Shown piece by piece: positions 973-8,124 of a stretch of DNA of 64,000 nucleotides. The DNA is from Haloplanus sp. CK5-1 (lineage in GTDB: Archaea; Halobacteriota; Halobacteria; Halobacteriales; Haloferacaceae): positions 2,728,001 through 2,792,000 of the forward strand of contig NZ_CP147505.1 of assembly GCF_037201915.1 (NCBI RefSeq). The letters run 5' to 3'. Positions within the stretch are counted from its first letter, which is position 1; each line of letters opens with the position of its first letter. The notes beneath the pieces were generated by a model. The model was not told the DNA's origin, ran no database searches, and worked only from the letters and a program-made list of their open reading frames with translations. Made by a program: the position numbers and the translations under genes.

Positions 973-3549
973 ATGAACGAAGGGAAACACTGGCAGGAAA
1001 CGTGGCGGGACGAAGAGTTGTTCGAACTGGACGATTCGGCGACCGACCCGACGTACATCCTCGGGATGTTCCCGTTCACGACAGGCGAGTTACACATCGG
1101 ACACGTCCGGAACTACACTATCACGGACACGTTCGCCCGGTTCAAACGAATGCGAGGCGAGGACGTCCTGCACCCGATGGGGTGGGACGCGTTCGGCTTG
1201 CCGACCGAGAACGCGGCCCAGAAGAACGGAATCGACCCGGAGATCTGGACGAATCAGTCGGTCAACCGGATGCGAAACCAGATGGAGAACCTGGGTTTCA
1301 GCTACGACTGGTCGCGTGAGATACGGACCTCCGACCCAGGATACTACCGGTGGACACAGTGGTTGTTCAAACGGTTCTACGAGGCGGGCCTGGTGGAGCG
1401 CAAACACGGGCGGGTCAACTGGTGTCCCAGTGACGAAACCGTTCTGGCGAACGCGGAGGTCCAAGACGGTGCCTGCTGGCGGTGTGGAACGACCGTGGAG
1501 ACCCGCGAACTCACGCAGTGGTTCTTCACGATCACCGACTACGCGGACGAACTGCTCGACGGACTGGACGAGTTATCGGGGTGGCCGTCACAGGTCAAGG
1601 AACGCCAGCGGAACTGGATCGGGCGGCGTGAGGGGACGAAAGTCACCTTCGAACTGGCCGAGGGTGGCTCAGTCGACGTGTTCACCAAACGGCTGGACCG
1701 CATCCACGGCGCGACGTACCTCGCCCTCGCCCCACACCACGACCGCAGTCTCGAACTCGCAACCGACGATTCCGCGGTAGCCAAGTACATCTCCTCGACC
1801 GGCGACGACACCGACCGCGGCGTCGACGGTGTCCGTACCGACGCGACGGCCATCCACCCGGTCACTGGTGAGGAGTTGCCGGTCTACGTCTCCGAGTACG
1901 TTCTCGAGGACTTGGGTACCGGCGCAGTGATCGGGATTCCCGCTCACGACGAACGGGACTTCGAGTTCGCACGGGCACACGACATCGAGTCCCGCCGCGT
2001 CGTGGAACCCGACAGGTCCGAGGACGGTGACGACGGACCCTTCACCGGGGACGGAACGCTCGTGAACAGCGGCGAGTACGACGGCCTCACGAGTTCCGAA
2101 GCCCAGTCTCGGCTCCACTCCGACCTCGAGGTGGCAGAGTCGTACACGGACTATCGTCTCAGGGACTGGTGCATCTCGCGCCAGCGGTACTGGGGGACGC
2201 CGATTCCGATCGTCGACTGCCCGGACTGTGGATACGTCACGGTCCCGGACGAGGACCTCCCGGTCGAACTCCCCGAGTACGTCCAGACCACGGGAAATCC
2301 GCTCGAGGAAGTCGAGGACTTCGTCGACACGACCTGTCCGGAGTGTGGCGCCGACGCCGTCCGCGAGACGGACACGATGGACACGTTCGTCGATTCGTCG
2401 TGGTACTATTTGCGGTTCATTTCGCCCGACGAGGACGAGATGCCGTTCGATATCGACCGCGCAAACGAGTGGCTACCCGTCGACCTGTACGTCGGCGGGC
2501 AGGAACACTCCGTACTCCACCTGCTCTACATGCGGTTTTTCGCCCGTGCGCTGTCGGACATCGGCCTGCTGGACGTTCGCGAACCGGTCACGACACTGTT
2601 GCCACACGGCTACGTGTTGAACCACGGCAAGAAGATGTCGAAAAGCGACGACAACACTATCTCCCCGGCGGAGTACGGCGAGGGCCTCACTCGACTGTTC
2701 ATAATGGGGGGGGTGAAGCCACAGAGCGATTTCGACTGGTCGAACCACCGACGGGACGCGAGCTACACGCTTCGGAAGGAGATCGCCGAGTTGGGGACGA
2801 CACACATCAACGAGGTGACCGACGCCGGCGACCGGCCGGTCGACGAGTACGTCTCCAGAGCCGTCGACCACGCTATCGAGACGATCACCGACCACTACGA
2901 GTCGCTGGAGTTCTACGACGCCGTCCGGGAACTCCGGTCGTTGTACTCCGTACTCTCGCAGTACCGGGAGCACACGACGCCGGACGCGGACGTGTTCACT
3001 CGCGGGGTTCGTGCACTCGTGGCGATGATCTACCCGATCATGCCACACATGTGTGAGGAGGTCTGGCACTATTTGGACGACACGCTGTTGGCGGCGAGTT
3101 CGTGGCCGGAGCCGGAGCGTCGGACCGATGACTTCGAGCTAGGGCAACGAACCGTCTCGAGTGTCCGGTCGGACATCCGGGAGATCTGCGATTCGCTCCA
3201 GGACATGGAGCCCAGCGAGATCCGTCTCGTCGTCTCGCCGGAGTGGAAGTACCGTGCGATGCAGGTCGCGCTGGACGAAGATTCGCGAGTCTACGACAAG
3301 GTCGTCGAAACAGTAGATGACCCCGATACGGCCGACCAACTCACCGAGTACGCCCAGTATCTGGCCGAGAACCGTCGGGAACTCACGGAGGAACTCCCGC
3401 CCGACCGGGAACGGGACACGCTCGAACGGGCGTCGTGGATGATCGAGATGGAGTTCGACGCGACGGTCTCGGTCGTCCCCGCTTCGGAGGCCGACCCCAC
3501 GATGCGCGAGCGGGCACAACCCGGGAAGCCAGCGATCAGCATCTCCTGA
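973..3549 (+). CDS. Second (divergent) leucyl-tRNA synthetase, LeuRS2
   Basis: This 858-residue class Ia synthetase is a paralogue of the canonical enzyme encoded at 5455-8124. Both catalytic signatures are intact: HIGH at residues 41-44 and KMSKS at 554-558. The CP1 editing domain has changed. The threonine-rich segment is FTKRLDRIHG at 237-246, where the paralogue has [10 protein letters not shown], so K239 and R243 replace threonines. The conserved aspartate motif PAHDERD is retained. The first zinc pair, CPSC in the paralogue, is CPSD here (151-154). Some haloarchaea, such as Natrialba magadii, are known to carry two LeuRS proteins, one much less active. Activation of leucine is likely. 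Weakened or altered editing is my inference. An AT-rich box lies near 884-893, leaving an untranslated leader of perhaps 50 nt or more. The gene leads into tRNA-Leu(GAG) 76 bp downstream. Confidence 0.9.
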   Translation: MNEGKHWQETWRDEELFELDDSATDPTYILGMFPFTTGELHIGHVRNYTITDTFARFKRMRGEDVLHPMGWDAFGLPTENAAQKNGIDPEIWTNQSVNRMRNQMENLGFSYDWSREIRTSDPGYYRWTQWLFKRFYEAGLVERKHGRVNWCPSDETVLANAEVQDGACWRCGTTVETRELTQWFFTITDYADELLDGLDELSGWPSQVKERQRNWIGRREGTKVTFELAEGGSVDVFTKRLDRIHGATYLALAPHHDRSLELATDDSAVAKYISSTGDDTDRGVDGVRTDATAIHPVTGEELPVYVSEYVLEDLGTGAVIGIPAHDERDFEFARAHDIESRRVVEPDRSEDGDDGPFTGDGTLVNSGEYDGLTSSEAQSRLHSDLEVAESYTDYRLRDWCISRQRYWGTPIPIVDCPDCGYVTVPDEDLPVELPEYVQTTGNPLEEVEDFVDTTCPECGADAVRETDTMDTFVDSSWYYLRFISPDEDEMPFDIDRANEWLPVDLYVGGQEHSVLHLLYMRFFARALSDIGLLDVREPVTTLLPHGYVLNHGKKMSKSDDNTISPAEYGEGLTRLFIMGGVKPQSDFDWSNHRRDASYTLRKEIAELGTTHINEVTDAGDRPVDEYVSRAVDHAIETITDHYESLEFYDAVRELRSLYSVLSQYREHTTPDADVFTRGVRALVAMIYPIMPHMCEEVWHYLDDTLLAASSWPEPERRTDDFELGQRTVSSVRSDIREICDSLQDMEPSEIRLVVSPEWKYRAMQVALDEDSRVYDKVVETVDDPDTADQLTEYAQYLAENRRELTEELPPDRERDTLERASWMIEMEFDATVSVVPASEADPTMRERAQPGKPAISIS

Positions 3550-8124: not shown

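Follow-up and report, generated by a model that had tools for sequence, protein, structure and literature searches.

Why should a haloarchaeon keep two leucyl-tRNA synthetase (LeuRS) genes, two tRNA-Leu genes, a PP-loop enzyme and a tiny open reading frame (ORF) side by side, and do these genes belong together? The locus lies near the start of the window, which is the whole stretch of 64,000 nucleotides analysed here (positions 2728001-2792000 of a single-contig haloarchaeal genome of 3.24 Mb). The original prediction of a 7.2-kb cluster with nothing unrelated between its members was borne out, all six genes being recovered at or very near the positions predicted and no further convincing gene being recognised within the interval from leuS2 to leuS. 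On the forward strand, leuS2 (973-3549), tRNA-Leu(GAG) (3625-3709), a 41-codon ORF (3859-3984) encoding the candidate precursor peptide MSQQTRKGTSRLKEHLEEAKERIEFEGEGYRTNPVDGNCRL, the PP-loop protein gene (3997-5214; separated from the small ORF by a spacer of 12 bases) and tRNA-Leu(CAG) (5258-5342) follow one another, and leuS, hereafter leuS1, lies beyond them on the reverse strand (5455-8124). Both tRNA genes were called with ARAGORN.

The surroundings of the locus were also examined. An IS6-family insertion sequence on the reverse strand (79-771) adjoins leuS2; its transposase is encoded at 87-731, and it carries the 12-bp inverted repeats GGGTCGCGTTAA at its ends. The right side of the LeuRS region is marked by an 85-bp palindromic, MITE-like repeat on the forward strand (8606-8690) with the ends CTATAGTAGC, of which the genome holds about 28 copies. 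This copy and an inverted one at genome positions 2726320-2726404, 10.2 kb apart, bracket the LeuRS region, the G+C content of which is 0.59-0.63 vs 0.64-0.73 across the 20 kb upstream. The start of the PAS/histidine-kinase gene that follows (8521-10375) is split by the copy in the window. Further along, a tRNA-Gly(TCC) gene (18132-18202) precedes a long stretch of lower G+C content (0.53-0.65; about 18000-49000). This stretch, where KaiC-like genes occur among others, has the look of an integrated element; a search of the window for a duplication of the tRNA-Gly attachment site of at least 15 nt found none.

Haloarchaeal LeuRS are known in an archaeal form, LeuRS-A, and in two bacterial-type forms, B′ and B″, and genomes with both B′ and B″, encoded in different genome regions, have been described (Andam et al. 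2012, PMC3436685). That some haloarchaea carry two LeuRS, as had been pointed out for this locus, was thus already published as two bacterial-type enzymes per genome and isn't new in itself. Both proteins of the locus proved to be of bacterial type, with 782 bits for leuS2 and 900 bits for leuS1 against TIGR00396 leuS_bact (curated cut-off 548), and both stayed below the cut-off set for archaeal LeuRS. In a tree of 43 haloarchaeal LeuRS-B proteins, leuS1 was placed inside the B′ clade (support 100/100), matching B′ proteins from another family at 72%, and leuS2 outside both the B′ and B″ clades, on an end branch of 0.95; the identity of leuS2 to any other sequence does not exceed 54%. Judged by its sequence, leuS2 stands alone as a third lineage of LeuRS-B, the exact place given by the tree tool to so long a row being unsure. 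All or nearly all B″-clade proteins in the same tree carry PAHN or PGHN, not PAHD or PGHD, in the editing-site motif, suggesting that editing is altered or lost across that whole clade.

LeuRS-A scored above the cut-off in 11 of 12 congeneric genomes, and none was found in this genome. In a sister genome its gene lies two genes from that of prephenate dehydratase (pheA), and here co-linearity stops right after pheA. For LeuRS-B, no match was obtained in the seven congeners that the search for it listed. Since LeuRS-A is absent, no LeuRS genes were found in this genome outside the locus, and leuS1 is presumed to be the housekeeping enzyme.

The second enzyme, leuS2, departs from the consensus at 26 of 253 near-invariant positions, vs 1-11 in seven other sequences checked. 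By alignment to Thermus LeuRS, its changes include Y43 to F, M50 to I, T252 to R and T248 to K. The change at M50 gives the signature HIGH rather than HMGH, found in leuS2 alone among the 43 haloarchaeal LeuRS-B, and the editing motif reads TKRLDR instead of TTRxDT. We take Y43 of the Thermus enzyme to line the leucine pocket and T248 and T252 to belong to the editing site, from which we infer the effect of these changes in leuS2. With its reading frame unbroken and both HIGH and KMSKS preserved, leuS2 is probably an active enzyme. Relaxed constraint has reportedly been described for a second haloarchaeal LeuRS, a spare enzyme, and the changes in leuS2 may simply reflect the same process.

Seven tRNA-Leu genes were found in the genome (GAG twice, CAG twice, TAG, TAA and CAA). 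The GAG gene outside the window is identical to that of a sister species over the aligned sequence, and the tRNA-Leu genes of the window are consequently additional copies. They show 85-87% identity, the GAG copy being 87% identical to its ancestral counterpart outside the window, and both give ordinary-looking cloverleaves close in kind to other tRNA-Leu. No tRNA was found within about 1.5-2 kb of LeuRS-B in any of 48 other locus entries (about 40 distinct genes, some entered twice) and both window tRNA genes, GAG and CAG, have a counterpart elsewhere in the genome, which argues that their clustering with LeuRS is not due to chance. Each unit of the locus has a separate promoter-like box rich in A/T (for the 41-codon ORF, some 25 bases ahead of it) and leuS1 is convergent, so that the locus is not one operon. 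Like the B′/B″ duplicates (PMC3436685), the present case involves bacterial-type LeuRS acquired by a haloarchaeon and present as two copies in one genome; unlike them, leuS2 belongs to neither clade and has leuS1 and two tRNA-Leu genes as neighbours, and LeuRS-A has been lost.

The PP-loop protein is composed of an N-terminal beta-grasp-like domain, a PP-loop ATP pyrophosphatase domain with the SGGxDS motif present as SGGKDS, and a C-terminal zinc ribbon. PDB profile matches to its N-terminal 75 residues are weak but consistent, nearly all of them being beta-grasp (1ryj, E=0.0028; SAMP2; ubiquitin), and the AlphaFold model, made from a two-row alignment, is poor (mean pLDDT 42.9). Similarity in the PP-loop domain is clear (TtuA, E=1.8e-8), and the protein stays below the cut-offs of named families (33.6 vs 450 bits for NF049949; 29.5 vs 272 bits for TtcA). 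Members of its own family were found in 2 of 391 haloarchaeal genomes, namely the window genome and Halobellus clavatus (31% identity). A full-length homologue is encoded on the Geobacillus stearothermophilus plasmid pGS18 (28.5%, E=1e-46) and more distant ones are carried by Xenorhabdus, Pantoea and Paenarthrobacter plasmids, these four being the bacterial relatives retrieved from plasmid records. In the Halobellus homologue (locus record positions 14960-16207), SGEVDS replaces SGGxDS and the use of ATP may be altered.

Scans of the genome collection returned nothing with the window protein as query and only the Halobellus locus with the alignment as query, and no relatives were found in viral contigs, scanned with three queries, or in phage records. 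A phylum-wide profile search returned ordinary TtuA/NcsA-type genes, mostly starting after the N-terminal domain. A Comamonas plasmid match, which looks like an ordinary TtcA, was set aside, and matches on Neisseria plasmids were left out of the six-member family.

In all six family members, across lineages, a small ORF of 32-69 aa lies directly upstream of the PP-loop gene. It counts 41 codons in the window, 32 in Halobellus clavatus, 47 on pGS18, where it is preceded by a strong ribosome-binding site, 56 on the Xenorhabdus plasmid, 69 on the Pantoea plasmid and about 60 on the Paenarthrobacter plasmid, this last one being unannotated and the least certain of the six. RNA hairpins often separate a RiPP precursor gene from that of its enzyme, and a stable one is predicted between the small ORF and the PP-loop gene in the four plasmid loci (z of -4.4, -2.6, -3.4 and -3.8); on pGS18 the hairpin was not classed as a terminator under strict scanning criteria, and no hairpin was found in the 12-base spacer of the window pair. 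Mutual similarity among the small ORFs is low, the best shuffle p, 0.016 (uncorrected) for window vs Halobellus, being the best of 15 comparisons, and the motif ICG[GA]S is common to the Xenorhabdus and Pantoea ORFs. As the ORFs have so little mutual similarity, their status as precursors rests on position, size, spacing and hairpins. The pair thus described is a recurrent unit for which Pfam, NCBIfam and PADLOC have no family name, and no published account of it was found in a literature search of partial coverage.

Metabolite-type genes lie near the pair on all four plasmids. On pGS18, an MFS transporter, an AAA ATPase and a nucleoside phosphorylase are encoded nearby, and on the Xenorhabdus plasmid an MFS transporter and an AAA ATPase. 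The PP-loop gene of the Paenarthrobacter plasmid (locus record positions 8283-11727) is followed by unannotated ORFs for a TauD-like dioxygenase and a cytochrome P450. On the Pantoea plasmid (locus record positions 7274-16494) an apparent uncharacterised biosynthetic cluster was observed, with the 69-aa ORF, the PP-loop enzyme, a PEP-binding protein, an FAD/NAD protein, a phosphodiesterase, an aminotransferase, a DUF4910 protein and an amidase. Next to the window pair, neither an exporter gene nor a protease gene could be recognised. By analogy, the layout of the pair in its relatives is that of small ribosomal-peptide gene clusters, and on balance we lean towards regarding the small ORF and the PP-loop gene as a peptide-modifying pair.

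The comparison of neighbourhoods gave a divided answer on the proposed linkage. The small ORF and the PP-loop gene do recur together, but LeuRS-B elsewhere is unlinked to tRNA-Leu or to the PP-loop gene, and leuS2 itself falls outside this comparison since it has no true orthologue. No aminoacyl-tRNA synthetase or tRNA was found near the PP-loop gene at any of the five other relatives, Halobellus clavatus gave no LeuRS-B match, and a peptide pair linked to LeuRS was seen only once, in the window; the link may accordingly be coincidental. The idea that the C-terminal residue of the peptide dictates which synthetase is targeted was also considered, the window peptide ending in Leu beside LeuRS, but it was rejected, as the peptide of pGS18 has a C-terminal Trp and this plasmid carries no annotated aminoacyl-tRNA synthetase.

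The explanation we prefer, with a probability of roughly 0.42, is that of an acquired leucine-charging island with an embedded RiPP-like peptide and adenylating enzyme, in which leuS2 would serve as possible self-resistance. A horizontally acquired island would have replaced the archaeal LeuRS-A, supplying leuS1 of the B′ type, the divergent leuS2 and two extra tRNA-Leu genes, and it would carry a two-gene unit of a rare mobile family, i.e. a precursor-like ORF followed by a beta-grasp/PP-loop enzyme. Nearly equal weight is given to mere coincidence, whereby these are chance neighbours in an acquired region of low G+C content, the B′ enzyme having displaced LeuRS-A, leuS2 being a decaying or low-activity spare and the pair, unrelated to leucine, having been inserted by mobile-element traffic. 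The IS6 element beside leuS2, the two bracketing MITE copies, the lowered G+C content, the five other relatives of the PP-loop gene without LeuRS and the several promoter-like boxes are all consistent with coincidence. The frame and both signatures of leuS2, on the other hand, are intact, and tRNA-Leu lies beside LeuRS at no other LeuRS-B locus, so that the leucine part at least looks like a set.

Two further explanations give the tRNA genes a direct part in the activity of the pair. A toxin-antitoxin or anti-phage module seems very improbable. In it, tRNA-Leu would be acted upon by the small ORF or by the PP-loop enzyme, and the extra tRNA and LeuRS copies would compensate. These copies do adjoin a mobile two-gene unit and AAA ATPases follow the Xenorhabdus and pGS18 pairs, but the exporters and oxidases near the relatives fit metabolite production better, PADLOC gave no match for the PP-loop protein, leuS2, the small ORF or the plasmid proteins, and PHROG gave no informative match for the window and plasmid proteins. 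Very improbable, too, is a partner set in which a leuS2 of altered specificity charges a dedicated tRNA-Leu and the PP-loop enzyme uses the product on the small peptide, even though leuS2, tRNA-Leu(GAG) and the pair are adjacent and co-directional and the change of Y to F at the Thermus Y43 position, with the lost editing-motif threonines, could relax the choice of amino acid. Both tRNAs are ordinary in appearance, as noted above, and PP-loop enzymes activate their substrate with ATP, none that uses aminoacyl-tRNA being known to us. Aminoacyl-tRNA-dependent modification of the peptide, one of the roles first suggested for the locus, thus found no support, the relatives of the pair having no synthetase or tRNA nearby.

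The least probable of all is the tRNA-Leu-specific thiolase that the nearest characterised relatives of the PP-loop protein, TtuA and NcsA, and its retained zinc ribbon had brought to mind, since the three Fe-S cysteines essential in TtuA/NcsA/TtcA and in CtaC (PMC10067955, PMC6772006) are absent and the family members are plasmid-borne and stand beside small ORFs and metabolite-type genes, not tRNA genes. In TtuA, NcsA and TtcA these cysteines bind a catalytic [4Fe-4S] cluster (PMC10067955), and an Fe-S cluster is also needed by CtaC, the thioamide synthetase of closthioamide (PMC6772006). In the alignment the cysteines of the TtuA CSYC and ECPY motifs are not matched by cysteines of the window protein, which has CxxC pairs only in its C-terminal zinc ribbon. 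The CxxC pairs of the Halobellus and pGS18 proteins belong to such a ribbon as well, and the relatives likewise have none of the three cysteines. The window protein shares with CtaC, TtuA, TtcA and NcsA the PP-loop (adenine nucleotide alpha-hydrolase) fold, and with CtaC a presumed peptidic natural product, but it differs from all of them in having no sulfur-insertion Fe-S cysteines and in having a beta-grasp-like N-terminal domain in place of the zinc finger. The substrates of CtaC are carrier-bound nonribosomal peptides.

Returning to the acquired island with its embedded pair, the PP-loop fold and the loss of the sulfur-chemistry cysteines point to adenylation. The beta-grasp-like domain may help to bind the small peptide, and the PP-loop domain would use ATP to adenylate a carboxylate or amide of the peptide, which would then be cyclised, conjugated or left as a peptide-nucleotide. 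Short precursors are adenylated by ThiF-like enzymes in systems of the microcin C type and in those that form macrocycles; in the case of microcin C the product poisons an aminoacyl-tRNA synthetase, and immunity genes belong to the cluster (reviewed in PMC12250964). As in those microcin C-type RiPPs, a very short precursor-like gene stands here directly before a putative ATP-dependent adenylating enzyme; unlike in them, the enzyme is a PP-loop protein and not ThiF/MccB-like, no ThiF match having been obtained for it in Pfam or NCBIfam.

The product would be a small bioactive peptide, possibly directed against LeuRS, of which leuS2 would be the tolerant copy, and this is the weakest step of the explanation, since the LeuRS linkage does not recur in the PP-loop relatives. 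The producer of agrocin 84 is protected by a divergent LeuRS, AgnB2 (PMC5059758), and leuS2 resembles it in being a second, divergent bacterial-type LeuRS, here with neighbours of putative biosynthetic role, and in the signature HIGH. AgnB2, however, has KQSKS where leuS2 keeps KMSKS unaltered, and no agrocin genes were found at the leuS2 locus. Two other likenesses are not specific to leuS2, T42 of AgnB2 being common in haloarchaeal LeuRS-B and hence uninformative, and all aligned haloarchaeal LeuRS-B looking short before KMSKS. By analogy, the position of leuS2 beside the pair fits the pattern of microcin C and agrocin 84. Self-immunity to a LeuRS-targeting product, as first suggested for this locus, agrees with the divergence of leuS2 and disagrees with the missing LeuRS linkage in the relatives of the pair; as a role for leuS2 we hold it to be tentative, with the odds against it.

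Taken together, the locus is as first described, the interpretation first offered for it finds support in part, and the unit of peptide and PP-loop enzyme is a more solid new element than the LeuRS immunity step. The boldest form of the proposal, which we regard as unlikely, is a new class of ribosomal peptide natural products, spread on mobile DNA among archaea and bacteria, whose very short precursors are adenylated by a beta-grasp/PP-loop enzyme. Here the product would be a LeuRS inhibitor, and self-protection through a tolerant LeuRS would have driven the replacement of LeuRS-A. If the explanation we prefer is right, it would add to ribosomal peptide biosynthesis a new type of enzyme common to archaea and bacteria, and it would give a concrete cause for the repeated acquisition and duplication of bacterial LeuRS by haloarchaea, a long-standing oddity. 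Differential antibiotic sensitivity or tolerance was already suggested for haloarchaeal LeuRS duplicates in 2012 (PMC3436685), and a candidate producer pair lying between two LeuRS genes makes this idea testable.
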